Below, one piece after another: positions 5,401 through 60,366 of a DNA stretch of 64,000 nucleotides. Each line of letters begins with the position of its first letter. Positions within the stretch are counted from its first letter, which is position 1. Source of the DNA: Streptomyces canus. GTDB lineage: Bacteria; Actinomycetota; Actinomycetes; Streptomycetales; Streptomycetaceae. The stretch covers positions 1-64,000 of the forward strand of contig NZ_CP107991.1 in NCBI RefSeq assembly GCF_041435015.1, in the 5' to 3' direction. The notes beneath the pieces were generated by a model, which did no database searches, had not been told where the DNA came from, and worked only from the letters and a program-made list of their open reading frames with translations. The translations under genes were made by a program, and so were the position numbers.

Positions 5401-5809
5401 TGTCGTCGTAGCCGGCGCGTATCAGGCCACTGACGTCGAACAGCCGTTTGTCCAGAAGGTTTTGGCCGATCAGGGCGGCGGCGTCGGCGGGAACGACGTA
5501 CTGATCGCCCCCGGCGCCGCGCACGGACACCGGGACGTGCTCACGGCCCGGTGCCTGCCGTACGCCCGTTACCCGGCCCCGGGCGTCCAGCCGGACCCGG
5601 TCGCCGGTGAGGAGGGTGACGTACCGGCCGGCCGCGGAGGCGGAGCCCGCGGTCCGCGCGCCGAGGGCGGAGCCGCCGGGCGCCGCGACCGTGGCCGTGT
5701 CCTGCACCCGCAGGCCGAGGCCGGAGCCCGTGGCCGCCACCGAGACGCCCGTCATCAGCCCCGCCACCAGCAGGGCGGCCAGCGAGGCGCTTGTGGTTCT
5801 GTCGCGCAT
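2435..5809 (-). CDS. Secreted S8 (subtilisin-type) serine protease, 1124 residues
   Basis: The N-terminus has a signal peptide (MRDRTTS.. then a hydrophobic stretch to about residue 27), followed by a propeptide-like region. The catalytic domain carries all three residues: Asp253 in VAVLDTGVD, His285 in GHGTHVA and Ser460 in GTSMATPH, with the oxyanion Asn381 in AAGNEG. About 600 further residues follow, probably beta-rich extracellular domains. The enzyme should be exported and cleave proteins outside the cell. Its start follows the stop of the upstream gene without a gap, so it is the last gene of an operon led by an ECF sigma factor. Confidence 0.93.
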   Translation of the reverse strand: MRDRTTSASLAALLVAGLMTGVSVAATGSGLGLRVQDTATVAAPGGSALGARTAGSASAAGRYVTLLTGDRVRLDARGRVTGVRQAPGREHVPVSVRGAGGDQYVVPADAAALIGQNLLDKRLFDVSGLIRAGYDDTRRGTLPLIVSYEGESAQRRSTQKSLVADADATVRRELPSVAGAAITVPKAGADDLWRALTEEQGVARVWLDGRFKASADEDGANAREAGGGVAQIGAPAAWAAGYDGKGVKVAVLDTGVDTTHPDLASAVKASKNFTGTGSTDDRAGHGTHVAATLAGSGARSGGRYKGVAPGAGILNAKVLDDSGEGSDSSVIAGLEWAAGQGARVANLSLGQADTPGEDPVEAAVNALSKSTGMLTVAAAGNEGPDAGTVDSPGAAESALTVGAVDGEDRLADFSSIGPTADSALKPDLTAPGVDIVSARAAHGHMGDPAADGYVSMSGTSMATPHVAGAAAILAQRHPDWTGARIKQALTASTTPTSGATGYQQGTGRLDVSRALEGAVASEQTSVSFGKQLWPHTDDRPVTQHITYRNDGDQPVTLDLTATATGPGGSTAPEGMFTLSTTQLTVPAGGTAGVDLTADTRVEAADDAYSGSLVATVRNGAGPAAVRTAFGVVREAEAYDLTLKFLDRGGKPVSAPLTEILGYSGTYWTTDLKDSEQISKGVYRVRVPRGDYVVDTVMEDARGTSALVRPRLSLTGDTTVVFDARKAKPVGITAPQGAKMSDGQLNLAVGTGDTGGEPHNSTLFWGTFKNLRTATLGPTAPAGRLSTQLGGLWQKGSTTYHLLYNLPDRFPTGYRHTTRMNELALLKRNFGSSVAHRKGIVNVLWSGPTLSLGTVSDPFPLPTTAKIYITTPKGFKWTANLGQRNASGDDEDVFYGTESAKSYQAGRTYAATYNVGVFSPITGGPYGAQRDGDTLDLCVPDLADGTGHPASSTAKRHTTVTADGSTLLDNDGALCQTVEKLPSVPARYTIRTNLTRPPGVATTTSRLTAAWTFTSSPSDPGSLPLSTVRFHPKLTPTGTAPAGRRTTIPLSLQGPAATDLKSLTVKVSYDAGKTWSPAPVTTTHGKRTLTLTHPENARSVSLKSTLTDTTGNTYAVTILKAYLLT

Positions 5810-44292: not shown

Positions 44293-45332
44293 CCATTGCG
44301 GGATGGTGCGCACGCCGTGGCTGGCCAGTCCACCCCCTCGCTGCGGGCCGTAAGACACCGGCCGCGAACTGCGGCGAGTGCCGTGAGCACACGCACTCTC
44401 CGGCACAGTGCCCCTGTCTGCCCGCGGGGCGGTGGTGCCACGGCTTTCACGCTGCGACCCTCGACCAGCAGCGGATCACCCGGTGGTGGGGTGCCGACCC
44501 CGACCTCGGTGTCGGTGTGGCCTGCGGCCCGGCGGGCCTGGTGGTCATCGACATCGACGCCCACTCCGCCGCGCCTCCCAGCCGGCACCGGATCCTGCCG
44601 GGCATCACGATCGGCGACCACATCGACCTGGCCGGTCTGGCCAACGGCTTCCACACCCTCGCCGTCCTGGCTGCTCTGCGCGGCCGGCCGAACCCCGCCG
44701 ACGACACCGCGACCCTGCGCGTGCGTACCCCTTCCGGCGGGCTGCACGTGTGGTACCGGAGCACCGACAACCGCCGCTGGCAGTGCTCTTCAGGCTCCAG
44801 CCAGGGCCGAGCCCTGGCCTGGCAGGTCGACGTCCGCGCACACGGCGGATACATCATCGCCCCCGGCACCACCACCCGCCACGGCACCTACACCCCCCTT
44901 GGCGATGCCCGGGAACCCACCCCGCTACCGGCCTGGCTCGCGCAGGAACTCGAACGCACCGGTCACCTGCCCGCCCCCACCGTCCCCGCCCCCCGCCCGG
45001 TCCCGCCCCGCGCGCAGCAGGCCGTCCTTGCCGCGGGCGGCGGTCGCGCCCGCCTCTCCCACGTCCTGGCCGCGATCCTGGCCCCGGTCCAGGAGTGCGG
45101 GCGTGCCTCGGAGGGCACCGGTTTCTCCGACGCCCTCAACCGGGCCGCCTACACCCTCGGTGGCCTCGTGGCCGCCGGCCGCCTCCTCCAGGACGAAGCC
45201 GAGCAGGCCCTGCGCGAGACCGCGACCGCGGTGCGTCCCGGCCAGGAACGCCGCGCCGAGCAGATCATCCGCAGCGGCATGACCGAAGGCCTCAAGCGCC
45301 CCCTGCACGCCACGTCAGGGAGGCGCCAGTGA
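44208..45332 (+). CDS. Bifunctional DNA primase-polymerase (Prim-Pol, AEP)
   Basis: 374 residues from GTG 44208; GTG 44214 is also possible. The AEP catalytic motifs are GLVVIDIDAH (DxD, near 111-120), TPSGGLHVWY (sGGxHvy) and VDVRAHGGYIIAPGT (third acidic residue). A cysteine group CGEC..CPC near 55-70 probably binds zinc. It makes primers and short DNA at plasmid or phage-type origins. Its TGA overlaps the helicase GTG (GTGA), so both form one replication unit beside the iteron cluster. Confidence 0.9.
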   Translation: MHVPAELRFPHGDSRTAAPDALVAARSLAIAGWCARRGWPVHPLAAGRKTPAANCGECREHTHSPAQCPCLPAGRWCHGFHAATLDQQRITRWWGADPDLGVGVACGPAGLVVIDIDAHSAAPPSRHRILPGITIGDHIDLAGLANGFHTLAVLAALRGRPNPADDTATLRVRTPSGGLHVWYRSTDNRRWQCSSGSSQGRALAWQVDVRAHGGYIIAPGTTTRHGTYTPLGDAREPTPLPAWLAQELERTGHLPAPTVPAPRPVPPRAQQAVLAAGGGRARLSHVLAAILAPVQECGRASEGTGFSDALNRAAYTLGGLVAAGRLLQDEAEQALRETATAVRPGQERRAEQIIRSGMTEGLKRPLHATSGRRQ

Positions 45333-46846
45333 CCTCGCCCAACCGCGACACACTCTTCGACTTCAACCCCGATGCCGTCGCCGCCCAGATCCTCGCCCAG
45401 GGCCCTCTCCCCGTGCCCGCGCAGACGGCGACCGACCGGCCCGCCGCCGAGGCAACCCCGGCCGGCCTGGTACCCGACACCCTGACCGACCGCGGCAACG
45501 CCAAGCTCTTCGTCAAGCTCTACGCCAACGACTACCGCCACGTCCCCAAGATCGGCTGGTACCGGTGGGACACCACCCGCTGGCAGATCGACGAAGACGA
45601 CTCCATCCTGTGGGCCGCCGGTGACCTCGCCGAGAACATCGCCACCCACGACCCCCGCGGCCTGTTCACCACCACCGCCCTGCACAAACACCGCACCCGC
45701 GCCCTGTCCACCACCGGCATGAACGCCATGCTCTCCCAGGCCAAGTCGGCACCCGGCATGGTCCTCAAACCCGACCGCCTGGACGCCGACCCCTACGCGC
45801 TGTGCACCCCGCAGGGCGTCGTCGACCTGCGCACCGGCCTGATGACGCCCCCTGACCCGAACAAGGACTTCCACTCCCGCTCCACCACCGTCGCCCCCCA
45901 GCAGATGCCCACCCCCCGCTGGATGCGCTTTTTGACCGACACCTTCGGCGACGACACCGAAGGCCTCGAAATGATCGACTACCTGCACCTGTTGCTCGGG
46001 TACTCGATCACCGGCGACGTCGGAGCCCAGGTCCTGCCCTTCCTGTGGGGAGCAGGCAAGAACGGCAAGTCCGTCTTGCTGGACGCTTTCATGAAACTGC
46101 TCGGCGACTACGCCGACGCCGCCCCGCCCGGCTTCCTGATGGCCAAGCCCTTCGAAGGCCACCCCACCGACCTCGCCGAGCTCCACGGCAGGCGCGTGTA
46201 CGTCTGCTCGGAGATCAAGCCCGGCGACAAGTTCGACGAAGCCCGCGTCAAACACCTCACCGGCGGCGACCGCATCAAAGCCCGCCGCATGCGTCAGGAC
46301 CCCTTCAGCTTCGACCCCACCCACAAACTCTGGCTCCTGGGCAACCACAAACCCGAAGTCGGCACCGGAGGCTTCGCGTTCTGGCGTCGCATGCGCCTGA
46401 TCCCCTTCGAACGCGTCGTCTCCGACGACCGCAAGATCGACAACCTGGCCGACCTCCTCGTCATGGAGGAAGGCCCCGGCATCCTCGCCTGGCTCATCGA
46501 CGGCGCCCGCCGTTACCTCGCCGGCGACCGCGACCTCACCGGACCCGAACGCGTCCGCATCGCCACCACCGCCTACGCCGTCACCGAAGACCACACCGGC
46601 CGCTTCTACGAGGAATGCTGCCGCCAGGGCCCCGACCTCAGAGCCGAGCAGACCACGCTCTACAGCGCCTACAAGACCTGGTGCCACAATGAAGGAACGC
46701 AAGTCATCTCCTCACGAGCCTTCGCCGCCCGCACCCGCGAACTGGTCGGACTGGCCTCACCGAAGGAGATGAAGGTGTCCAACCAGCGCAAGTACTACCC
46801 GGGCATCGGACTGCTCACCGACGAGGAGAGGGAAGCAGGCCTATGA
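45329..46846 (+). CDS. Phage/plasmid primase-helicase, D5_N / P4 family
   Basis: 505 residues from GTG 45329 with GGGAGG upstream. The D5_N region spans about 50-190 (GNAKLFVKLYANDYRHVPKI, LCTPQGVVDLRTG). The superfamily 3 helicase core follows: Walker A FLWGAGKNGKSVLLDAF (239-255), Walker B and motif C as RRVYVCSEIKPG and KLWLLGNHKPEV. A C-terminal winged domain (YSAYKTWCHNEGTQVISSRA) is present. It should bind the adjacent repeats and unwind DNA for the Prim-Pol. Confidence 0.92.
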   Translation: MTSPNRDTLFDFNPDAVAAQILAQGPLPVPAQTATDRPAAEATPAGLVPDTLTDRGNAKLFVKLYANDYRHVPKIGWYRWDTTRWQIDEDDSILWAAGDLAENIATHDPRGLFTTTALHKHRTRALSTTGMNAMLSQAKSAPGMVLKPDRLDADPYALCTPQGVVDLRTGLMTPPDPNKDFHSRSTTVAPQQMPTPRWMRFLTDTFGDDTEGLEMIDYLHLLLGYSITGDVGAQVLPFLWGAGKNGKSVLLDAFMKLLGDYADAAPPGFLMAKPFEGHPTDLAELHGRRVYVCSEIKPGDKFDEARVKHLTGGDRIKARRMRQDPFSFDPTHKLWLLGNHKPEVGTGGFAFWRRMRLIPFERVVSDDRKIDNLADLLVMEEGPGILAWLIDGARRYLAGDRDLTGPERVRIATTAYAVTEDHTGRFYEECCRQGPDLRAEQTTLYSAYKTWCHNEGTQVISSRAFAARTRELVGLASPKEMKVSNQRKYYPGIGLLTDEEREAGL

Positions 46847-47244
46847 GTTCCCTGATCGACGCGGACGAGATCAGCCACGAGAGCGAACTCGTCTGGCTGG
46901 AAGACATCGACACCCTCGAGTACGTCCGCCAGAGCCTGGACCGCCTGCCCACCCGTAAAGGCCGCCCCGCCTACCACCGCGACGGCCGCATGGTCGGCTA
47001 CGCCATCCTGGGCCCCGACGCCAAAGCCTCCCGCGCCTCCGGCACCTTCCGTCGCCGCGTCTTCTGGCTCCTGCCCCACGACCGCGACACCGAACCCGAA
47101 GGCCTGTACGCCAAAAGCGCGCCCGCCGAAGCAGTTGACCCCCGCACCCTCCAACCCCGGGTCAAGGGCTACAAGACCGAACGCTCCGAAGGCGGCCCAC
47201 CCTCCGTCGCCATGCAGGAACTCGGCATACAACTCCCGCTGTAG
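46843..47244 (+). CDS. Small replication-module protein (DUF6009-like)
   Basis: 133 residues starting within the helicase stop (ATGA). It opens with MSSLIDADEISHESELVWLE, then VRQSLDRLPTRKGRPAYHRD and FRRRVFWLLPHDRD. The sequence resembles DUF6009 proteins found on Streptomyces plasmids; I am only fairly sure of the number. Tight coupling to the helicase suggests a role in replication control. Confidence 0.65.
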   Translation: MSSLIDADEISHESELVWLEDIDTLEYVRQSLDRLPTRKGRPAYHRDGRMVGYAILGPDAKASRASGTFRRRVFWLLPHDRDTEPEGLYAKSAPAEAVDPRTLQPRVKGYKTERSEGGPPSVAMQELGIQLPL

Positions 47245-47755
47245 GCGCCGCTCCGACTGCGGTGCCTCAGTCGTGCCCAGCTCACGGCGGTCGCCGGCAA
47301 CCTGCGCGGTGGCTCTTTGGCGTGGTTCAGCAGGGGAGTCGAGGCAGGTCGGGCACCGTCAGAATCGGCGTCCACTCGCCGATCCCGCGCCCGGCGGCCG
47401 CGAGCAGTGTGCGATCCGGCCTTGACGGATACCGCCCCCGTCAGCTTGTCCACTGAGCCGCCTGCTCGGCGCGGAAAGCGTCCGCCAGTGCGGCGCACTC
47501 CTCGCCCACGCCGCGTACGACGCCCTCCTCGACCACTGCCTTTGTCTTGCAGGAACTGCCCCCAAGTAGATACCGCCCATGCCGTTTTTATGGATCACTC
47601 GCTCGATCATGTGGTGGACGGACCCACCTGGGCCGAGGTGGTCGACGGGGAGGGTGCGGGGCTAGAAGTCCGAGGATTACCGGGGTGAGCCGACGATCTC
47701 GAGTGCACCCGTCGGTGCCGCCGCGCCGTGAGATATGGTTCACGAGGGGTAACAA
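47245..47755. other. No intact gene
   Basis: On the minus strand the frame ending near 47452 (VVRGVGEECAALADAFRAEQ) looks like the tail of a lost gene. Nothing else can be supported in about 510 bases. Confidence 0.45.
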
Positions 47756-47820: not shown

Positions 47821-48468
47821 ATGGCGAGGCAGTTACGCGCCGAGCAGACCCGCGCGACGATCATCACGGCCGCAGCAGAGCTGTTCGACCGCCATGGCTA
47901 CGAGTCGACCAGCCTGAGCGACATCGTCGAACATGCCCAAGTCACCAAGGGCGCCCTCTACTTCCACTTCGCGGCCAAGGAGGACCTCGCCCACGCCATC
48001 ATGGAGCTGCAGTCCAAGGCCTCGCACGAGGTGACGAACGATCTGGACGGGCGGGACTACTCCTCGCTCGAGACCCTGATGCGCATCACCTTCGGCATCG
48101 CCCGGCTGTCCGTCGAGGGCCCGATCCCGCGGGCCGGGCTCCGCCTCGCCACCGAGGGAGCCGCCGTCCGGCCGCCGCTGAAGCACCCCTTCATGGAATG
48201 GCAGGACATCGCCACCCGCAAACTGACCGGTGCGGTGAAGGAGGCCGACGTTCGCCCAGACATAGACGTCGAGGCCGTCGCCAAATCCCTCGTCAGCTTC
48301 TTCGTCGGTACCCGCGTGGTGGGCCGCTCCCTCGAACCCGTCGCCCACCAGCCCCGCAGACTGGCCGAGATGTGGCACCTCACGATCCGCGGCCTGGTCC
48401 CGGTGACCCGCCGCGCCCGCTATCTGAACCTCGCCGCGCGCCTGGAGCGGGAGATGAGAGTGGCCTGA
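47821..48468 (+). CDS. Gamma-butyrolactone-receptor-family TetR regulator (ScbR/ArpA type)
   Basis: 215 residues. AGGAG lies 9 bases before ATG 47821. The start MARQLRAEQTRATIITAAAE, LFDRHGYESTSLSDIVEHAQ and VTKGALYFHFAAKEDLAHAI is characteristic of the autoregulator-receptor branch of TetR proteins rather than general TetR repressors. The C-terminal domain keeps the family pattern (VAKSLVSFFVGTRVVGRSLE). Receptor and pseudo-receptor cannot be told apart by eye. It probably regulates the nearby biosynthetic genes together with the receptor at 52439. Confidence 0.85.
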   Translation: MARQLRAEQTRATIITAAAELFDRHGYESTSLSDIVEHAQVTKGALYFHFAAKEDLAHAIMELQSKASHEVTNDLDGRDYSSLETLMRITFGIARLSVEGPIPRAGLRLATEGAAVRPPLKHPFMEWQDIATRKLTGAVKEADVRPDIDVEAVAKSLVSFFVGTRVVGRSLEPVAHQPRRLAEMWHLTIRGLVPVTRRARYLNLAARLEREMRVA

Positions 48469-50235: not shown

Positions 50236-52167
50236 TTACTCCCAAAGGTGGGTGCGGCGAGCCCACTCGTCCGGCTTGTCCCCGAGCCGCCTGCCGGTGG
50301 CGATCGGGACGGCGTCCAGGAACTCGGAGGGCAGGTCGAAAGCGTCTGCCAGGGTCATCATGTGCGGTGCCAGGCCAGCGATGACATCGTTGACAAGATA
50401 CGGGAACGTACGGACGTGGTCGGCGGCCAGATGGCCCTCCGCGAGCAGATCGCCCGTGCGGCCCTCGATCTGACGGAGCAGGAACAGCCGACAGAGGTTC
50501 TCCAGGACCGTGCGCGTCGCGTCGCTCTCCGCCCGGGCCGCCGCCTCAATGAAGGCGTCCGCGGCCTGTAGGGCGGCGTAGACCGAGACCATCTCCAGGG
50601 CGGGACCGGAGGCCTCGTTCCACCGGCCGAGCGGATCGCCCTTCGGGCCCTGGCGCAGCGCCGTACGGGCACGGGACTGCCAGAGCACCACGAGCTCGGC
50701 GAGGAGGTCGCGCAGGAAGGGAAGACTGGTCAGCGACCTGCCGACGGGCGGGACGGGGGGATGAGGACGGTGCTCCACTCCCTGCCCGAAGAGCATCTCG
50801 GACCCGGCCTTCACCCAGATGACGAGGTTGTCCCCCTCCGCGGTGATCCCGCCTTCGATGTTCTGGGCCAGCTCGGAGATGCCGTTCACGGGGAAGAGGC
50901 CCTGGGCCCCGCAGCGTTCGCGGGCCTCGGTCGTCACGGCCCGGGCCTGCCAGGTGATCCATCCCTTCACGATGGCAACGAGCCGCTCGACGTCCGCCCG
51001 GTCCTGCGGGGCGTGGTGCATCCAGCGGGACACCGTCGTGCGGTGGAGGAAGGTCATCGCGTACGCCGTGGCGAGGCCGTGGAGCAGGCGGCCGTGGTGG
51101 CTGCGGTGCGCTGCCAGTGGCACCCGCTCACCGAGCTTCGGGCCGGCGATGAAGCGTGAGTGGGCGTGACGTACGGCGATGGCCAGGGCCGCACGGGACA
51201 TACCGAGTGTTCCTGCACTCATGCAGAGCTTCCCGGCGGTGACGCGACCGATCGAGCGCAGGAAACGTTTGCGAGCGCTGCCGACCTCACTATCGAGGCG
51301 GCCTTCGTCGTCGAGGCGGCCGTGTGCTGACTCCAGTAGGGCCTCTCGGGGGAGTCGTACGTGCTCGAAGGCGGTGAGACAGTGGTCCACGGGCGTGCCG
51401 GTACGGTCCGGGAGCCTGCGAACGTGAATCCCGGGGAGATGGCCGTCCCGGTCGCTCAGCTGAGTAAGGAAAAGGAAGACTCCCTGGTCCTCGCCGTCGA
51501 TCACGAGACGGGCGGCGACGACGGCGCTCTTGGGTCCGCCGGCCAGGCTGGTGTTCGGCATGAACTTCTGGGCGCCGGGGGTCGGCGTGTGCAGAATGAA
51601 GCCACCGGTCTCGGGGTCGAGCACGGCGGTGGTCTGCAGGGCCGGAGCGTCGTTGCCGTGGTCTAGTTCCGTACAGAGAAACGTTCCTGCCTGCCGCATC
51701 GAGGTGAACTCGGAGAGGTCCCGCCCGTCAATGCCGTTCTGGTGGTCGAGCAGACTGCCCAGGAACAGGTTGTAGTGGATGCTGGCGAGGGTGCACACGC
51801 CCCCGTCCGCCACGCCGACCCACTCGTGCAGCGCGGCAAGTGACCGCGCGTCCCCCGCCAGGGCCAGCGGGGAGCCGACCAGGGAGTTGACCAGCCGTAG
51901 GCGCTCGTAGGAGAGGGCTGTGCGCTCGCCGGTGGACAGGTCGGGGCGGTGACGGAACTCCTTCGCGGCGAGCAGGTGCCGCCATGTCCCGTGGACGCGC
52001 TCCTTGTCCTCCTCGTCGAAGAGCAGGTGCGCCAGTTCCCGGCGGGAGGATGTGTCGCCCTCTGCCGGTCTGATGCTGGTGCGGCGTCCCCCGCGCCGCT
52101 GCTCGGGTATGTGCACCGGCCCCGCCGCCTGGGCGGGACTCTCGTCATGGAACGTCAGCATGGCCAT
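50236..52167 (-). CDS. aco: Acyl-CoA oxidase, butenolide (avenolide-type) autoregulator biosynthesis
   Basis: The start at ATG 52167 (MAMLTFHDESPAQ) has GAGAGG 8 bases upstream; the frame is open to 52383 but without support. The 643 residues fit the acyl-CoA oxidase family: AGTFLCTELDHGNDAPALQT (flavin/substrate loop), ILHTPTPGAQKFMPNTSLAG, an acyl-CoA dehydrogenase-like middle and a long helical C-terminal domain. In S. avermitilis Aco together with Cyp17 makes avenolide; here the oxidase is divergent from a receptor-type TetR, which is followed by a P450. That synteny is the basis for the call. Acyl-CoA desaturation is known for the family; the product here is inferred. Confidence 0.85.
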   Translation of the reverse strand: MAMLTFHDESPAQAAGPVHIPEQRRGGRRTSIRPAEGDTSSRRELAHLLFDEEDKERVHGTWRHLLAAKEFRHRPDLSTGERTALSYERLRLVNSLVGSPLALAGDARSLAALHEWVGVADGGVCTLASIHYNLFLGSLLDHQNGIDGRDLSEFTSMRQAGTFLCTELDHGNDAPALQTTAVLDPETGGFILHTPTPGAQKFMPNTSLAGGPKSAVVAARLVIDGEDQGVFLFLTQLSDRDGHLPGIHVRRLPDRTGTPVDHCLTAFEHVRLPREALLESAHGRLDDEGRLDSEVGSARKRFLRSIGRVTAGKLCMSAGTLGMSRAALAIAVRHAHSRFIAGPKLGERVPLAAHRSHHGRLLHGLATAYAMTFLHRTTVSRWMHHAPQDRADVERLVAIVKGWITWQARAVTTEARERCGAQGLFPVNGISELAQNIEGGITAEGDNLVIWVKAGSEMLFGQGVEHRPHPPVPPVGRSLTSLPFLRDLLAELVVLWQSRARTALRQGPKGDPLGRWNEASGPALEMVSVYAALQAADAFIEAAARAESDATRTVLENLCRLFLLRQIEGRTGDLLAEGHLAADHVRTFPYLVNDVIAGLAPHMMTLADAFDLPSEFLDAVPIATGRRLGDKPDEWARRTHLWE

Positions 52168-52213
52168 GGTCAGGGACCTCTCTGAGCGCCGTCGGCGATT
52201 GACGAGGACCATA

Positions 52214-52237
52214 AAATACGTACCAGACGGTTTAATC
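52214..52237. promoter_or_regulatory. ARE-like operator 1 (aco proximal)
   Basis: AAATACGTACC (52214-52224) followed by AGACGGTTTAATC. It has the spacing and the ..ACGGTTT half-site of autoregulatory elements bound by gamma-butyrolactone receptors. It lies 47 bases from the aco start. Confidence 0.7.
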
Positions 52238-52266
52238 AAGCAGAACACAGATGTGAGGATCCCTTG

Positions 52267-52290
52267 AAAAACCGGCTGGCGGGTTTTATC
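52267..52290. promoter_or_regulatory. ARE-like operator 2
   Basis: AAAAACCGGC and TGGCGGGTTTTATC form a dyad with AAAACC / GGTTTT arms and an 8-base spacer. Its start is exactly 53 bases (about five helical turns) from operator 1. Confidence 0.6.
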
Positions 52291-52399
52291 TTGATGGCCA
52301 CCGCAGCGCTCAGTGTCGGAGGAATGTCCGGAAATGATGCTTTGGGGACGAGGGATTCGGTCCTTCGGTGGCGTGGAGTCCACCGGCGTACCCTGCGTA

Positions 52400-52423
52400 A
52401 AATCAAAACCGGATGGTTTCTTT
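52400..52423. promoter_or_regulatory. ARE-like operator 3 (receptor proximal)
   Basis: AAATCAAAACC then GGATGGTTTCTTT, with AAACC / GGTTT arms, ends 15 bases before the receptor GTG and next to its ribosome binding site, so binding should block the gene. Confidence 0.55.
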
Positions 52424-52438
52424 CTTGGGAGGTTGACT

Positions 52439-53122
52439 GTGGTTCGGCAAGAACGGGCTGTGCGGACGCGTCAGGCAGTACTGGTCGCGGCAGCGGAGAT
52501 CTTTGATCAGGTCGGGTACGACGCGGCCTCGATCTCCGACATCCTCGCCCGGTCCGGCGTGACCAAGGGGGCCCTCTACTTTCACTTCCCGTCCAAGAAG
52601 GACCTGGCACAGGGAGTCCTGGACGCCCAGGTCGACGCTCTGCCGGCGGTCCCCGTCCAGGAACTGAAGCTGCAACAGTCCCTGGACGAGGCGCTGCTGC
52701 TGGCGCACCTCCTCCGGAAAGAGACGGGCGACCCGATCGTTCGGGGCAGCGTGCGACTGACCGTGGAGCAGGGGTCGAGCAAGGACGGGCTGGACCGGCG
52801 CGTGCCGATGCGACGGTGGATCGAGCACACCCAGGGCCTCTTCGAAGAGGCCAAGCAGGCTGGGGAGATCCTGCCGCACATCGACGTGGAGGCCGTCGCG
52901 AAGCTGGCCGTGGGTGCATTCACCGGCATCCAGGTGCTGTCGAACATCATGATGGACCGCGCGGACATGCCTGAGCGGGTCATCGACCTCTACCGGAACC
53001 TCATGGCGGCCATTGCGGCACCCGCCGTGCTCGCGCGCCTGCAGTTCGACGTCGGACGAGGCGCCGAGGTGTTCGAGGAAAGCGTACGACTGCGAGAAAA
53101 CGCCGAGCTCGCCTCACCCTGA
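52439..53122 (+). CDS. Butenolide / gamma-butyrolactone receptor, TetR family (AvaR1/ArpA type)
   Basis: GTG 52439 follows GGGAGG by 6 bases; the longer frame upstream is not needed. The 227 residues begin MVRQERAVRTRQAVLVAAAE, IFDQVGYDAASISDILARSG, VTKGALYFHFPSKKDLAQGV, almost the classic A-factor-receptor N-terminus. The ligand-domain part (GSVRLTVEQG, FTGIQVLSNIMMDRAD) is well kept. It sits between aco and the P450 as AvaR1 does in S. avermitilis. It probably represses aco, itself and pathway genes until the butenolide builds up. Confidence 0.9.
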   Translation: MVRQERAVRTRQAVLVAAAEIFDQVGYDAASISDILARSGVTKGALYFHFPSKKDLAQGVLDAQVDALPAVPVQELKLQQSLDEALLLAHLLRKETGDPIVRGSVRLTVEQGSSKDGLDRRVPMRRWIEHTQGLFEEAKQAGEILPHIDVEAVAKLAVGAFTGIQVLSNIMMDRADMPERVIDLYRNLMAAIAAPAVLARLQFDVGRGAEVFEESVRLRENAELASP

Positions 53123-53130
53123 GCTCGACC

Positions 53131-53197
53131 GCGCGATCCGCGTCACGGGAACCACGGACGTCGAGGACAAGACGACGTCCGTGTGACCGGATCGCGC
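53131..53197. terminator. Long three-part hairpin between receptor and P450
   Basis: GCGCGATCCG pairs with CGGATCGCGC (outer), GTCAC with GTGAC (middle) and ACGGACGTCG with CGACGTCCGT (inner), with a bulge GGGAACC on the left side. There is no T tract. It may end the receptor transcript, or insulate or regulate the P450 gene 33 bases downstream. Confidence 0.6.
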
Positions 53198-53230
53198 ACA
53201 CACCACACCAACACAAACGGGGATGGCACG

Positions 53231-54466
53231 ATGGAAGCACCTGTCTGCCCATACGCACTCGACGTCCTGGGACGTGACCTCGCGGGCGAGGCCGCCATGT
53301 TGCAGGCACAGGGGGCCGCGGTGGAAGTGGAACTGCCCGGCAAGGTCCTCGCCTGGGCTGTCACACGGCAGCGGTACATCAAGCAGCTTCTCACCGACCC
53401 GCGGGTCTCCAAGGACGCCCGCAAGCACTGGCCGGCCTTCCGCGAGGGTCGCATAACCGACGAGTGGCCGCTCTACCCGTGGGTGGCGAACGAGAACATG
53501 CTCTTCGCCTACGGCGAGGACCACTCCCGTCTCCGCCGCCTGCTCTCGGGAGCGTTCACCGTCCGCCGCACGGAGGCGCTCCGGCCGCGGGTCGAGGCGA
53601 TCGTCGCGGAACTGCTCGACGGCCTGGAGCTGCTGCCCGGCGACGAGCCGACCGATCTGCGGGCGGTGTTCGCCAAGATCCTGCCCATGAAGGTGATATG
53701 CGAACTGTTCGGGGTGTCGGAGGCCGACACGAGCCCGCTGTGCACAGCCCTGGACACCGTCTTCAACACCACCGTCAGTGGTGAGGAGATGGCCATGGCG
53801 CAGCTGCGGGTCTTCGAGTTGCTGGGCGCGCTCGTCGAGGAGAAGCGCTCCGCGCCCGGTAACGACCTGACGTCCGCCCTGATCGAGATCCGCGACAACG
53901 GCGAGGGACTCCGGGAGCAGGAACTGCTCGGGACCCTGTACCTCATGATCGCGGCAGGCCAGGAGACGACCCGCACGCTGATCGTCAACGCCCTCGCCGC
54001 TCTGCTGACCCGCCCCGACCAGCTGGAGCACGTCCGGGCGGGCCGGGCCGACTTCAACGACGTCATCGCCGAGACCATGCGGACCCGTAACCCGGCGGCC
54101 TTCTCGCCCATGCGGTTCGCCGTGGAGGACATCGACCTGGACGGCGTGTCGATCAAGAAGGGCGACCCCATCCTGGTGTCCTTCGCCGCCGCCGGGATCG
54201 ATGTGGAACAACACGGCCCCGACGCCGCCGACTTCGACCTGATGCGTCCCGGACGCCGTGAAAGCCTCGGCTTCGGGCACGGTGTCCACCACTGTGCCGG
54301 GGCCCCGCTGGCCCGGCTGGAGGCGTCCGTCGCCCTGGCCCGGATCCTGGAGCGCTTCCCGCGGATGACGATGGCGCTGCCCGTGGAGGGGCTCGGTCCG
54401 ATGGGATCCTTCATCGTCAACGGGTACAGCTCGCTGCCCGTGTTCCTGAGACCGGCGACCGACTGA
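53231..54466 (+). CDS. Cytochrome P450, probably Cyp17-like in autoregulator synthesis
   Basis: 411 residues from ATG 53231. The heme ligand is Cys355 in [17 protein letters not shown], the I-helix oxygen site is AAGQETTRT and the K-helix ExxR is in IAETMRTR. Length and motifs fit soluble actinomycete P450s that use ferredoxin. Immediately downstream of the receptor gene, it occupies the place of cyp17 in the avenolide locus. A tailoring role in the downstream pathway is the alternative; sequence alone cannot decide. Confidence 0.88.
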
Positions 54467-54687: not shown

Positions 54688-55455
54688 ATGCCGGCCATGC
54701 CCGACACGCACAGCTCGTACTTCAGCACTTTCCGCCCGGCTCCGGACGCACCCGTCCGCCTCATCTGCCTGCCCCACGCGGGCGGTTCGGCCAGCTTCTA
54801 CTTTCCGATGGCCCGCGCCCTGGCTCCCGGCGTGGAAGTCATGGCCGTGCAGTACCCCGGGCGTCAGGAACGTCGCGGCGAACCGTTCGTCCCGGACGTC
54901 GCCACGCTTGCCGACCAGATCGCCGAGGCCCTCCGGCCGTTGACCGATCGCCCCTACGCGCTGTTCGGGCACAGCATGGGCTCCATCGTTGGTTTCGAGG
55001 TGGCGCGCCGTCTCGAAACCATGGGCAACGGTCCTGCGGAGCTCTTCGCCTCCGGTGGCCGCGCCCCCTGCGCCGAACGCCGGGGAGAACTCTGGCACCG
55101 AACGCCCGACGACGAGTTCGTCAGGCGGGTCAAGTCCATGGGCGGAGCCGGTACCGAGCTGCTCGACGACCCGGACATGCGGGACATGCTGCTGCCCGCC
55201 CTGCGCAACGACTACCGGGCGATCGAGACCTACGAATACCAGCCGCAGGCCGCCCTGTCCTGCCCCGTGACCGTGTTCACCGGGGACGCCGACCCACGGG
55301 TCAGCCTCGGGCAGGCACGCGCCTGGGCCAGCCACACGGGCGGCGCCTTCACCTTCGAGGTCCTGCCCGGCGGCCACTTCTTCCTCGTCGACAACCAGAG
55401 CGCGGTGCTGCGCACGGTCGTCAACCACCTGAACAAGATCCCCGCCCCCTGCTGA
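54688..55455 (+). CDS. Type II thioesterase (first of two)
   Basis: ATG 54688 follows GGGGAG by 7 bases; the open frame upstream is leader. The 255 residues are an alpha/beta hydrolase: ICLPHAGGSASFYFPMARAL at the N-terminus, nucleophile Ser96 in FGHSMGSIVGFE, acid in FTGDADPRVSLG and the His in LPGGHFFLVDNQ. TEII enzymes remove stalled acyl groups from PKS or NRPS carrier domains. Confidence 0.9.
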   Translation: MPAMPDTHSSYFSTFRPAPDAPVRLICLPHAGGSASFYFPMARALAPGVEVMAVQYPGRQERRGEPFVPDVATLADQIAEALRPLTDRPYALFGHSMGSIVGFEVARRLETMGNGPAELFASGGRAPCAERRGELWHRTPDDEFVRRVKSMGGAGTELLDDPDMRDMLLPALRNDYRAIETYEYQPQAALSCPVTVFTGDADPRVSLGQARAWASHTGGAFTFEVLPGGHFFLVDNQSAVLRTVVNHLNKIPAPC

Positions 55456-55580
55456 GTTGCGAGTTGTAGCGCCGGCCCACCGTGGTTCCAGCCGCCGTCG
55501 AGCCGGCGCGCCCACACTGTTCCGAGCCGATGCGCGCCGGGATCCACCTCGGGCGGACGAAGGGACTGATCCACACCGCC

Positions 55581-57320
55581 ATGACCGTTGGAGCGGAGAC
55601 CTTCGCGGAGCACATCACCCGCCGCCCCGCGGCCACGGGCGACACCGCCGAGGCCACGCGCCGTGGGGCGCAGCTCGACGCGCTGCTCGGTGATCCCCAC
55701 GCCCCCGCGAACCCGCACGGCCTGACGAACCTGCTCGCCGCCGATGCCCGGCACCGACCGCCGGGGGAGACCGAATGGCTCCTCGCGCGGGCCGGGCTCG
55801 GCGCCGAGTTCGTACCCGTCGCACACGGCGGCCGACTGACCCGCGTGGATCTGCTGGACCGTGTGTTGCGCCCGGTGTCCCGCCGGGACGTCACCCTCGG
55901 CTACAGATCCGGCCTCGGCTCCCTGCTCGCCGCTTGCGCGGTCTGGACCTCCGGCACCGAGCAGCAGCGCGCCTCCACGGCCGCACTGCTGCTCGGCGGG
56001 GGCCGCATCGCGGGCGCACCCCAGAACGGCCCCGCCCGCGGCGAGATCGTGGCCCGCCCCACCACAGGGGGCTTCCGGCTCGACGGCCGCGGGGAAGGGA
56101 TCATCGACGGGAACCGTGCCGATGCCTATGTCGTCCACGCCCGCACCGGCCCGGCCGGGACCCCGCACAGCGACTCCGTCCTGCTGCTCCGGGCCGGCCG
56201 CCCCGGGCTGCGGATCCTGCCCGGCCCTTTGGCCACCGGCCTGCGCGGCGCCCCCTGCCGCGCAGTCGAACTGACTGACTGCGCGGCACCGGACCGGGCG
56301 CTGATCGGCGGGGTGGGAGAGGGCGTGGCGCTCGGGCTGCGGAGCCGTCAGGTGGGTGACTGCCTCGTGCCCGGCCTGCTCGTGACGGCCTCGGGCACCG
56401 CCCTGCACTCCGCGGTCCGGGCGTCCTGCGAGGGACGGTCCGACGGGATCGCCCACCGCTGGCAGGGCCCTCTCGCCGGTGTCTTCGCCGACCTCCTCGC
56501 CTGCGACAGCCTGGCGACGGTGGCGATGCGCGCGCTGAGCCTGCTGCCCGACCGCGCCCAGGTGCCGGCCGCCGCGGCACGCTACCTCGTGCCGGGTGTG
56601 CTGCGTGAAAACCTGGAACAGCTCACCTCCGTGCTCGGTGCGCGCGGCCATGAGCGCGACAGCGCGCGGTACGGGATGCTCGGCAGGCTGATGCGCGACC
56701 TTCCGGCCGTCGCGCCCGCAACGAGTGCCGCCGACTGCCAGTCCGTCATCGCACCCCAGCTGCGGGAGCTCGCGGAGCGATCCTGGTTCGCCGAGGACAT
56801 GCCGCCGCCTGGCCTGTTCCGGCTGTGCGCCGAACTACCCGCCTTCGACCACCGGTTGCTCACCGCCGTGAACAGGGGGGACTTCCTGGCGTCCACGCTT
56901 CTCGCCTCCGCCGCCCGGGTCGCCTCCGTCCGGGGCATCGGCGGTCAGATCGGCGTCCTCTCCGATCTGGCCGGTCTGTGCGTCGGTGAGCTGCGCGAAC
57001 TGCGCGAGCGGCTCCTGGAGATGCCCGCGCCCGGTGCGGGGGAGTACCCCGTCGCCGCGTGGTGCGCCCTGACCGACCGGTACGCCCTGGTGGCCGCCGC
57101 CGCGGCTGTGCTCGGCGTCTGGGAGAGCCAGGACGGCAGCGACCCGTTCCTCGCCGCGCCCGCCTGGGCCGTGCTCGCGCTGATCCGCATCGTCGGACGG
57201 TTGGGTCTGCGGGCGCCCGAGCCACCGGCCGACGTGCTGGAGACGGTGCGGAACGAACTGGTCCGCCGCCAGCGCGGACACATCAGTTTCGACCTCCACG
57301 CCGCGGTGGCGACATGGTGA
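55581..57320 (+). CDS. Acyl-CoA dehydrogenase-like protein
   Basis: 579 residues from ATG 55581 (MTVGAETFAEHI); in-frame starts at 55482 and 55530 exist and no start has a clear ribosome binding site. The middle has acyl-CoA dehydrogenase character: VTLGYRSGLGSLLAACAVWT, GGGRIAGAPQNGPARGEIVA and GFRLDGRGEGIIDGNRADAY (beta-domain). The usual catalytic-base region is not obvious. It is longer than FkbI-type dehydrogenases (about 370-390), so I do not equate it with FkbI. The stop overlaps the phosphopantetheinyl transferase start. Confidence 0.65.
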   Translation: MTVGAETFAEHITRRPAATGDTAEATRRGAQLDALLGDPHAPANPHGLTNLLAADARHRPPGETEWLLARAGLGAEFVPVAHGGRLTRVDLLDRVLRPVSRRDVTLGYRSGLGSLLAACAVWTSGTEQQRASTAALLLGGGRIAGAPQNGPARGEIVARPTTGGFRLDGRGEGIIDGNRADAYVVHARTGPAGTPHSDSVLLLRAGRPGLRILPGPLATGLRGAPCRAVELTDCAAPDRALIGGVGEGVALGLRSRQVGDCLVPGLLVTASGTALHSAVRASCEGRSDGIAHRWQGPLAGVFADLLACDSLATVAMRALSLLPDRAQVPAAAARYLVPGVLRENLEQLTSVLGARGHERDSARYGMLGRLMRDLPAVAPATSAADCQSVIAPQLRELAERSWFAEDMPPPGLFRLCAELPAFDHRLLTAVNRGDFLASTLLASAARVASVRGIGGQIGVLSDLAGLCVGELRELRERLLEMPAPGAGEYPVAAWCALTDRYALVAAAAAVLGVWESQDGSDPFLAAPAWAVLALIRIVGRLGLRAPEPPADVLETVRNELVRRQRGHISFDLHAAVATW

Positions 57321-58327
57321 TCCGGCAGCCGGAGCGGGGCGCAGAGCCAGCCGTCGGCGCCGCGCCCCTCACTCCTCCGATACGGCTCCGGGGACCACGT
57401 GGCCCCTGGCACGACGTCCGAGACGCGATGGAGCGCTCGGGCAACGTCACCGTGCTGACGACCTGGAGGGAGTGGCTGAGCACCGCGCTCACCCAACCCT
57501 CGCTGAAGCCGCTGCTCGGCCGGGACTGGCAGCGTTTCCAGCAGACGGCGACGCCGGTCGTCCGCTACCGGTTCGCCGCTTCCCGGCTCGCCCTCAAGTA
57601 CACCGCGGCAGCAGTCCTGGGCACCGGGCCCGCCGAGCTCGACCTGTCCTACGCGCTCGACGGCCGTCCGTACCTGCGGGGACTCGGCACGCTGGAGGTC
57701 AGCCTCTCCCACGCGGAGGACCTGATCGCGGTGAGCCTGTGCCGCAGCGGCAGGATCGGGGTCGACACCGAGTCCACGACAGCGGGCGTCGACGCGGAGG
57801 CGCTGCGCGGTCACGCCTGCACGGCGCCCGAGCGCGAGCTGCTCGACCGGCTTCCCGAGGGGGAACGGGACGCCGAGCTGTTACGGCTGTGGACGCTGAA
57901 GGAGGCCTACACCAAGGCCCTCGGACAGGGGCTCAGGTTCGGGTTCACCGAGTTCGGCTTCGCACCGCACGCGGCGAGCGCGGGCGGCCTGCTTCGCACC
58001 CCCGACGGCACACCGGTGGACAGTCCCGAGTGGACGTTCGCCACCTGGCCGGAGCTCGGGGGACGCTACCTGGTCAGCGTGGCCTGCCAGAACCTCACGC
58101 CCGCCGTCCCTGCCGACCTCGCAGCCGCCTCCCTGCTCGCCCCGTCCGTCGTCGGCGCCCTCACCGAGGAGCTGGCCCGTGACCGGTCACCCAGAGGCGG
58201 CGAAGACCTCGTGGAACGCCGCTCGGCGGACCGCGCCCGCGTGGCCGTATCCGACGGACCACGCTCTCACCGAACCCGAAACCTTGGAGTGTCATGTCCC
58301 GACGTCTGTTCACCTCGGAGTCCGTGA
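57314..58327 (+). CDS. Sfp-type 4'-phosphopantetheinyl transferase
   Basis: 337 residues from ATG 57314, overlapping the preceding stop. The Mg/CoA motifs are [22 protein letters not shown] (148-153) and [16 protein letters not shown] (192-207). It activates carrier proteins, here probably the carrier domain at 60450 and the ACP at 63844. The last 11 codons overlap the metK gene. Confidence 0.92.
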
Positions 58328-59502
58328 CCGAGGGGCATCCCGACAAGATCGCCGACCGGATCAGCGACACGATCCTCGACGCCCTCCTCGACCAGGACCC
58401 CACGTCCCGCGTCGCCATCGAGACCCTGATCACCACCGGTCAGGTCCATGTCGCCGGCGAGGTCACCACCACGGCGTACGCGCCGATAGCCGAGCTGGTG
58501 CGCGGCGCCATCCTCGACATCGGCTACGACTCCTCCGTGAAGGGCTTCGACGGTGCCTCCTGCGGAGTGTCGGTGTCCATCGGCGCGCAGTCGCCGGACA
58601 TCGCGCAGGGCGTCGCGGCCGCCTACGAGTCCCGCGTCGAGGGCGCGGGCGACGAGCTGGACACGCAGGGTGCCGGTGACCAGGGCCTGATGTTCGGCTA
58701 CGCGTGCGACGACACGGCCGAGCTGATGCCCCTGCCGATCGCGCTGGCGCACCGCCTCTCGCACCGCCTGACCGAGGTCCGCAAGAACGGCACCGTGCCC
58801 TACCTGCGCCCCGACGGAAAGACCCAGGTCACCATCGAATACGCCGGGGACCGCCCGGTTCGTCTCGACACCGTCGTCGTCTCCTCGCAGCACGCCGCCG
58901 ACATTTCCCTGGAGGGCCTGCTCGCCCCCGACATCCGCGAGCACGTCGTCGAGTACGTCCTCAAGGAACTCGCCGAGCAGGGCGCGAGCCTGGAGACCGA
59001 CGGCCACCGCCTCCTGGTCAACCCCACCGGGCGCTTCGAGATCGGCGGTCCGATGGGCGACGCCGGACTCACCGGCCGCAAGATCATCATTGACACGTAC
59101 GGCGGCATGGCCCGCCACGGCGGCGGCGCCTTCTCCGGCAAGGACCCGTCCAAGGTCGACCGGTCGGCCGCCTACGCCATGCGCTGGGTCGCGAAGAACG
59201 TCGTCGCCGCCGGTCTCGCCCGCCGCTGCGAGGTCCAGGTCGCCTACGCGATCGGCAAGGCCGAGCCCGTCGGACTCTTCGTCGAGACCTTCGGCACGGG
59301 CATCCTGCCCGACGAGCGGATCCAGGAAGCCGTCACCGAAGTCTTCGACCTGCGCCCAGCCGCGATCATCCGCGACCTGGACCTCAAGCGGCCGATCTAC
59401 GCCCAGACCGCGGCGTACGGCCACTTCGGCCGCGAGCTCCCCGACTTCACCTGGGAGCGCACCGACCGCGTGGGGCAGCTGAAGGCCGCGACGGGCCGTT
59501 GA
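58294..59502 (+). CDS. metK: S-adenosylmethionine synthetase
   Basis: 402 residues, full length. [69 protein letters not shown] and [20 protein letters not shown] are the family's ATP, methionine and metal motifs. GGAG is 5 bases before ATG 58294. A pathway copy of metK beside a methyltransferase domain suggests extra SAM supply. The cell should have another copy for housekeeping. Confidence 0.97.
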
Positions 59503-59510
59503 CCGACCGC

Positions 59511-59548
59511 GCCGTGCCACCCGGGCCCCCGCGCCCGGGTGGCACGGC
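59511..59548. terminator. Perfect 16-bp hairpin after metK
   Basis: GCCGTGCCACCCGGGC and GCCCGGGTGGCACGGC pair perfectly around CCCCGC eight bases after the metK stop. No T tract. It probably ends or attenuates the first half of the cluster transcript. Confidence 0.85.
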
Positions 59549-59574
59549 TGCCCCCTCATGAGGAGGACCCGCAC

Positions 59575-60366
59575 ATGGCCCACCACCGGCGGATGAGGCT
59601 CTACTGTTTCGCGCACGCGGGAGCGGGGACCTCCTCGTTCCACGGCTGGGACGGCATCCTCGGACCGGACGTCGAGGTCGTCCCCCTCGCCCTGCCCGGC
59701 CGGGGCGAGAGGAGGGGCGAACCGCGGATCACGGACCGCGAGGCACTGCTCGCCGATCTCAGCAAGCGGTTCACCGACGCTCCTCCGGGGCCCTTCGCGC
59801 TGTACGGGCACAGCCTCGGCGCGATGATCGCCCACACGGTGACCTGCGCACTGCACGAGGCGGGACTGCCCGGGCCCTCGCTGCTGGCCGTCGGGGCCTG
59901 CCCGCCGCCCGCCACCAGGACCCCGCTCTCCGGCGCCCACCACGCCACGGACGCCGAACTGGTCCGGCTCCTCGGCGTCATGGGCGCCGTCCCGGAGGGC
60001 GCCCGGCCGGGCGGCTTCTGGTACCGGACCGCGCTCCCGGTGCTCCGCGACGACCTCGCCCTCGCCGACTCGCTGCGCGCCGCCGCCCGGCGACCGCTCG
60101 CGCCAGGACCACTGCCTGTACCCCTGCTCGTGGTGACCGGCGAGGACGACCCCATGGTCGGGCCGGACGCGGCAGCCGGCTGGGACCGGTGGACCGCGGG
60201 GCCGGTGACGCGGCGCACCCTGCCCGGCGACCACTACTTCGCGGGGCGCCAGGAGCTGCCCCGGCTGCTCGCCGACGCCTGCCGTGCCGTCGGGCACGCC
60301 GCCGCCCGCGAGGGCACACCCCACTGCTGCTCCGTTCCGGCTCTAGCCGCCACCGACAAGGTCTAG
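59575..60366 (+). CDS. Type II thioesterase (second of two)
   Basis: 263 residues; GAGGAGG lies 7 bases before ATG 59575. The hydrolase motifs are CFAHAGAGTSSFHGWDG, nucleophile Ser80 in LYGHSLGAMIAH, VVTGEDDPMVGPD and LPGDHYFAGRQ. Only distantly like the first thioesterase, so this is not a simple duplication. Editing of carrier-bound intermediates is the likely role. Confidence 0.9.
   Translation: MAHHRRMRLYCFAHAGAGTSSFHGWDGILGPDVEVVPLALPGRGERRGEPRITDREALLADLSKRFTDAPPGPFALYGHSLGAMIAHTVTCALHEAGLPGPSLLAVGACPPPATRTPLSGAHHATDAELVRLLGVMGAVPEGARPGGFWYRTALPVLRDDLALADSLRAAARRPLAPGPLPVPLLVVTGEDDPMVGPDAAAGWDRWTAGPVTRRTLPGDHYFAGRQELPRLLADACRAVGHAAAREGTPHCCSVPALAATDKV

Follow-up and report, generated by a model that had tools for sequence, protein, structure and literature searches.

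In Streptomyces avermitilis, the genes aco, avaR1 and cyp17 of the avenolide system are numbered sav_3706, sav_3705 and sav_3704 (PMC5744401). An eLife 2020 study tabulated 90 butenolide loci (Appendix 1-table 2), likewise with a TetR receptor flanked by a P450 and an acyl-CoA oxidase (PMC7347384); its entries include Streptomyces sp. CB02400, S. europaeiscabiei 96-14 and S. lunaelactis, and no row is named S. canus, with many rows giving strains only. The same three-gene module sits in an antibiotic cluster in S. fradiae (tylP/orf18/orf16, tylosin cluster) and S. pristinaespiralis (spbR/snbU) (PMC7554373), and in S. rochei a butenolide signal (SRB) is encoded on the giant linear plasmid pSLA2-L by srrX/srrA and acts via a Streptomyces antibiotic regulatory protein (SARP) gene (PMC12301235). 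Here we describe a locus of S. canus in the 64,000-nucleotide stretch that begins contig NZ_CP107991.1 (the window), where an acyl-CoA oxidase gene (aco), a divergent gene for an AvaR1-type receptor and a cytochrome P450 gene form what we judge, with a probability of about 0.86, to be a butenolide autoregulator locus of the avenolide type, carried on a linear plasmid. Previous work has established the avenolide system and its synteny (PMC5744401, PMC7670052, PMC5575351, PMC7554373, PMC7347384), and the S. canus plasmid locus is a new example; we add three further operator-like sites by ScbR and SARP genes, and the closeness of such loci to primase genes on plasmids.

The three-gene module and its enzymes

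The module consists of three intact reading frames within positions 50236-54466 of the window (Table 1), with a 271-bp intergenic region separating the divergent aco and receptor genes. A sequence-only reading had placed these genes here in the S. avermitilis order, and coordinates, profile matches and agreement with the sav_3706-sav_3704 numbering confirm this. The same order and divergence were found in 58 of 65 other loci (numbered L in our comparison set) whose receptor scored at least 200 bits; we set aside L063-L072, with weaker receptors (at most 39-45% identical to that of the window) and no Aco match, and L073-L084, with distant TetR matches only. The closest relative of the module, L114, lies on an 8.56-Mb contig and is 83% (aco), 89% (receptor) and 86% (P450) identical. 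Pairwise distances for Aco and receptor correlate strongly (r = 0.89 for 24 loci, 0.72 for 15 thinned loci).

Table 1. Features of the S. canus window around the putative butenolide locus
Feature	Position	Strand	Remarks
Plasmid replication block	44295..47244	+	bifunctional primase/polymerase, P4-family primase (45329-46846), DUF6009
Operator-like site ATACCGCCCATGCCGTTT	47570..47587	+	upstream of regulator 47821-48468; 0 mismatches to consensus, only 10.2 bits
Second ScbR-family regulator, pseudo-receptor type	47821..48468	+	pI 9.3; A108, V162, R165
aco, acyl-CoA oxidase	50236..52167	-	643 aa; putative avenolide-type butenolide synthase
Predicted aco-proximal operator AAACCGTCTGGTACGTAT	52216..52233	-	48 bp upstream of aco ATG
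Predicted second operator, palindromic AAACCGGCTGGCGGGTTT	52269..52286		1 mismatch to AvaR1 consensus, 20.1 bits
Predicted partial operator	52406..52423	+	just upstream of receptor start, 12.8 bits
AvaR1-type butenolide receptor, TetR family	52439..53122	+	227 aa; GTG start preceded by GGAGG
RNA hairpin between receptor and P450 genes	53131..53197	+	-49.4 kcal/mol, z -3.59
Cyp17-like cytochrome P450	53231..54466	+	411 aa
Left edge of PKS/NRPS cluster	54688..60366	+	thioesterase, acyl-CoA dehydrogenase-like, phosphopantetheinyl transferase, metK, second thioesterase

Aco matches the profiles PF22924 (58.9 bits) and PF01756 (52.1 bits), both over cut-off, and is 52-83% identical to the Aco of other loci across unbroken matches. 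The Glu of its AEGDN motif aligns with the Glu of EGDN or EGEN in solved acyl-CoA oxidases, which we take to be the catalytic residue. Relatives are numerous: 1039 of 7996 candidates scored at E 0.001 or better (the best 120 are listed), and in a sample of 295 genomes of the genus, 91 give matches at 1e-150 or better, paralogues of about 50-57% identity included. In a midpoint-rooted tree of 65 Aco rows, built without the fragment L035, L053 (whose match is broken over frames) and duplicate genomes, the window Aco pairs with that of L114 at 100/100 among receptor-linked Aco proteins, the placement the sequence-only reading had called for, with stand-in loci in place of S. avermitilis Aco.

The strain's own chromosome encodes a second Aco-like oxidase (C1:896466-898187, in L136, C1:888000-906000), 56% identical to that of the window; in the surrounding 18 kb neither a receptor nor a P450 of the family scores above 80 bits, and in the tree this paralogue and L165 share a long, separate branch. 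L115 has an Aco 72% identical to the window Aco and no family receptor within 17 kb; it is possibly an orphan synthase or a tailoring enzyme.

The P450 matches PF00067 (104.8 bits) and carries motifs, including AAGQETT, that are presumably those of P450s. Together with 59 rows from other signal loci it forms one clade of 60 with a support of 99 in the Shimodaira-Hasegawa-like approximate likelihood ratio test, apart from 19 paralogues of its own genome, the closest of which are 39-40% identical; the tree was made by a quick method, with these paralogues as outgroup, long branches flagged and S. avermitilis Cyp17 absent. By this tree the P450 is placed in the Cyp17 group. Between the receptor and P450 genes lies a very stable hairpin (Table 1); it has no T run and could tune P450 expression, possibly as an attenuator or RNA-stability element.

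Receptor, operators and predicted ligand

The receptor matches the NCBIfam profile ScbR_bind_reg at 200.7 bits (cut-off 150). It aligns without gaps to crystallised AvaR1 (PDB 6WP9) over 224 residues, with 155 identical (69%) and a score of 330.4 bits, against 257.6 bits for the chain 5XAY, presumably TylP. Its identity to the strain's own chromosomal ScbR, which has T85, F88, L131 and A162, is 43%. By sequence it is therefore classed as AvaR1-type rather than as a gamma-butyrolactone (GBL) receptor or pseudo-receptor, although receptor classes are about 40% identical to one another and hard to separate by sequence (PMC7347384).

We compared the pocket residues named for AvaR1 (PMC7347384), numbering them to fit F22, G26, Y27 and Q64; the printed numbers are off by one in places. 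The receptor equals AvaR1 at the lactone and coupling positions Q64, T108, W127, T162 and Q165 and at the chain positions A85, L88, H130, T131, V158 and F161. Because all of these agree, the ligand is most simply, and most likely, predicted to be avenolide or a very close analogue. The sequence-only reading had suggested perhaps a new side chain, for which we find no support, Thr131, which in AvaR1 touches the C10 hydroxyl (PMC7347384), being among the residues conserved here. The same system might nevertheless make a butenolide whose chain length, branching or oxidation is not that of avenolide, a variant of our reading that we consider unlikely though worth keeping in view. The chain contacts do vary: among 65 aligned receptors, positions 64, 127 and 165 are invariant, while T and N occur 27 times each at position 131, and H is found 51 times at position 130. 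S. albus produces butenolide 4, for which an Aco homologue is needed, and no avenolide was detected (PMC5575351). Against this variant stands the AvaR1-like pocket of the S. canus receptor, and the product of the enzymes is in any case unreadable from sequence.

The promoter shared by aco and the receptor gene carries AvaR1-type operators, as predicted by comparison with the published AvaR1 binding consensus (PMC5744401). The aco-proximal candidate, an autoregulator-responsive element (ARE), has no mismatch to that consensus, scores 29.0 bits and equals the S. avermitilis acoARE core at 17 of 18 bases. The palindromic second site and the partial site near the receptor start (Table 1) complete the set; avaR1 of S. 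avermitilis likewise has an ARE of half length (PMC5744401). Among 48 distinct intergenic regions of other loci, at one mismatch or fewer, an aco-type site is present in 41 and a second-type site in 44; 38 regions contain both, and L057 alone contains neither; the aco-type sites all lie on the same strand, with none on the other strand in the 48 regions. A consensus scan of the whole window is by itself not significant (12 matches at up to two mismatches, 8.6 expected), and the intergenic sites are convincing because of their position and matrix score. In 20 Markov shuffles of the whole plasmid the mean was 0.05 sites of at least 13 bits, compared with 29.0 bits for the aco-side site, and the palindromic matrix gave 10 matches of at least 13 bits on both strands, compared with a shuffle mean of 0.8 and a maximum of 4 (n = 20). 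The matrices were trained without this plasmid and regions identical to it; the training sites were chosen at one mismatch or fewer, so that the matrices are not fully independent of the consensus, and the aco-type ones were taken from one strand by definition.

In sum, the locus shares with S. avermitilis aco-avaR1-cyp17 its gene order, receptor with compared pocket residues, operator core and enzyme families; what sets it apart is its location on a linear plasmid, next to primase genes and a polyketide synthase/non-ribosomal peptide synthetase (PKS/NRPS) cluster.

The plasmid, its cluster and the proposed circuit

Contig C3 (84,492 bases), one of the five contigs of a 10.68-Mb S. canus genome, begins with the window. 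Four S. canus plasmid records match positions 46.8-60.5 kb of the window (13.7 kb) at 99.8% identity; one of these, NZ_CP108228, is a linear plasmid of 175,491 bases. The plasmid is divided in the window's assembly: C3 stops at 84,492, and contig C5 carries 2.8 kb from the right-hand part of NZ_CP108228 at 100% identity. The carrier of the locus is thus very probably a linear S. canus plasmid of about 175-176 kb.

As the sequence-only reading held, the locus lies beside a biosynthetic cluster, the left edge of which begins shortly after the P450 gene. On NZ_CP108228 the stretches L025, L022 and L023 hold a large PKS/NRPS cluster with metK, metH, metF, ahcY and a set of genes (HAD-IIIC phosphatase, 3-hydroxyacyl-CoA dehydrogenase, carrier protein, acyl-CoA dehydrogenase) suggestive of a methoxymalonyl-type pathway. 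All five edge genes stand beside the same signal module in S. durmitorensis plasmid p1, and the first four do so on a contig of Streptomyces sp. CB02400; in S. europaeiscabiei 96-14 the thioesterase and part of the dehydrogenase are visible before the contig ends. None of six tested neighbours (dhfr-like, thioesterase, dehydrogenase, phosphopantetheinyl transferase, metK, second thioesterase) was found within 16 kb in L114, so module and cluster are separable.

Outside the locus, the only sites of at least 13 bits on NZ_CP108228 are at 142848, 143189 and 144486, by genes for an epsilon subunit, an ScbR and a SARP; the same three sites lie at 5471, 5812 and 7109 of the strain's own C5, within the 2.8-kb stretch that is 100% identical. 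In the circuit we propose, drawing on avenolide work, Aco would oxidise a fatty acyl-CoA and the P450 would hydroxylate the chain, giving a diffusible butenolide. The receptor would bind the intergenic operators and repress aco as well as the receptor and P450 genes, until accumulating butenolide made it leave the DNA and the signal genes switched on. Through the sites before the acyl-CoA carboxylase subunit gene, the further ScbR gene and the SARP activator gene, the PKS/NRPS cluster would then be released.

Sequence, phylogeny, operators and pocket residues together make the identification well supported as a prediction. A number of points weigh against it. First, the chemistry and binding in this strain are predictions from sequence, and loci with receptors 81-88% identical to AvaR1 stand in for S. 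avermitilis Aco and Cyp17. Second, the module is not always whole: L115 and L165 have Aco without a receptor, and L061 has receptor and P450 without Aco. Third, the operators vary. L057 is without either site type at one mismatch, and L026, L054 and L055 have the second-type site and no aco-type site within two mismatches; these three, among the seven regions without an aco-type site, are relatives sharing the neighbouring cluster genes, and the absence speaks against a fully uniform circuit. The three downstream sites score 13-16 bits, far under the 29 of the aco site. Fourth, the homologous receptor of S. cyaneogriseus bound intergenic DNA and did not regulate aco (PMC7670052), and loss of the S. 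pristinaespiralis P450 increased antibiotic yield (PMC7554373). The earlier claim of a complete diffusible butenolide system stands for the butenolide locus; completeness is not established, because parts of the avenolide pathway still await elucidation (PMC5744401).

Genes carried on plasmids can be inert, and the locus could in principle be a silent remnant, intact and unexpressed or unneeded; three intact frames with operators in place and the near-identity among the S. canus plasmid records make this improbable. The AfsA family supplies another possibility. The contig of the window is without a PF03756 (AfsA) match, which bears out the earlier observation that the window lacks AfsA, and in the whole assembly, which splits the plasmid and may have a gap there, this profile matches one locus only, on the chromosome (C1:2.509 Mb). 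The further claim that this absence points to the butenolide route is weak, because that chromosomal AfsA locus exists and the synthesis of SRB-type butenolides relies on AfsA (SrrX) homologues (PMC12301235). A profile search found no AfsA homologue (SrrX/ScbA) beside the window receptor, of the kind an SRB-type or GBL locus would have, and the S. rochei system differs in its AfsA homologue and in its butenolide skeleton. That the receptor instead senses a product of the chromosomal locus, where AfsA, an ScbR and a pseudo-receptor lie together (C1:2.508-2.510 Mb), while plasmid aco and P450 tailor the PKS/NRPS product, is, even granting how alike receptor classes are, the least probable reading, as the chromosomal ScbR has its own pocket, the P450 groups with those of signal loci and the L114 module occurs without the tested cluster neighbours.

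Close to the avenolide-type locus, the window encodes a second ScbR-family regulator (Table 1) that shares 77% identity with the regulator encoded next to AfsA on the strain's chromosome. High pI is linked to pseudo-receptors, and the basic pI and lost lactone-contact residues of this protein fit a pseudo-receptor by sequence; it possibly links plasmid and chromosomal signalling. The site upstream of its gene, given the background of the consensus scan, is a weak candidate operator.

Hormone loci beside plasmid primases

The replication block in the window led us to a wider pattern. Aco at 58% identity or more occurs in 28 plasmid records, of which we examined 22, with the window representing all four S. 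canus records; six near relatives and S. cathayae L165 (53%, no receptor) are left out of the count. A P4 primase lies within 8 kb of Aco in 19 of the 22 loci (the window, L024, L026, L160-L164, L166-L168 and L170-L177), at gaps of 0.5-7.4 kb and with the block in either orientation; the stretches examined for L027, L169 and L178 have none. Counting distinct plasmids, 14 of 17 are near, against 3.3 expected with three primases each, and none of 200,000 simulations was as high, under an assumption of uniform gene placement that plasmids violate. In L118 the primase block stands directly beyond the receptor, between it and an inverted P450; in L167 it likewise stands directly beyond the receptor, with no family P450 of at least 250 bits within 19.8 kb.

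This adjacency is not special to Aco, as AfsA-type synthases are equally close: among the matches listed, 39 of 41 records have a primase less than 8 kb away, and the median gap is 3.9 kb. The 41 are those with a listed primase place among 60 listed of 160 matched records (19 have no known distance), and the sample is biased, with many near-duplicate plasmids uncollapsed and two of the three primase queries taken from other Aco-linked plasmids. L172 (NZ_CP108303, 8920-14723) combines both kinds: it has an Aco locus and, some 1 kb past aco, a ScbA/BarX-type synthase close to an ScbR, and both systems adjoin the primase.

Two simple explanations fared poorly. Hormone control of the primase is not supported by a scan of 25 upstream regions (up to 700 nt; two from one broken L053 gene), which gave two sites of at least 10.5 bits where 0.25 were expected, both the same sequence more than 600 nt upstream in the related L118 and L167. 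At this threshold there is no operator ahead of the primase in the window, and thus we do not claim that the hormone controls replication. Nor does common descent alone explain the pairing well, in what is a small test: primase and Aco distances correlate at r = 0.41 for 24 loci (0 of 2000 permutations as high) and 0.23 for the 15 thinned loci (107 of 2000), and primase and receptor distances at 0.36 and 0.09 (464 of 2000 for the latter, thinned set).

Of the 65 rows of the Aco tree, the 26 with a primase link are scattered (14 changes). A 17-row clade holding the AvaR1-like loci has no primase link, although flanks are short and some absences may be false; loci with receptors 81-88% identical to AvaR1 have no primase in the 3-9 kb examined beyond their genes. 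We found no publication on hormone loci beside plasmid primases in the titles and abstract starts of the open-access papers searched. Tentatively, and with rather more doubt than confidence, we suggest that the primase flank is a preferred home of Aco and AfsA hormone loci on giant linear plasmids of Streptomyces, that the avenolide module is an old plasmid cassette moving largely independently of the adjoining primase, and that chromosomal loci of the S. avermitilis type are one derived offshoot.

For S. canus, the identification predicts that the plasmid PKS/NRPS cluster answers to avenolide, which would give a testable handle on its product. If the wider pattern is real, the position at the primase flank would link the replicon with hormone signalling and antibiotic cargo; confirmed, it would help to explain the joint spread of hormone systems and antibiotic clusters, and it makes a link between a diffusible signal and plasmid maintenance testable.

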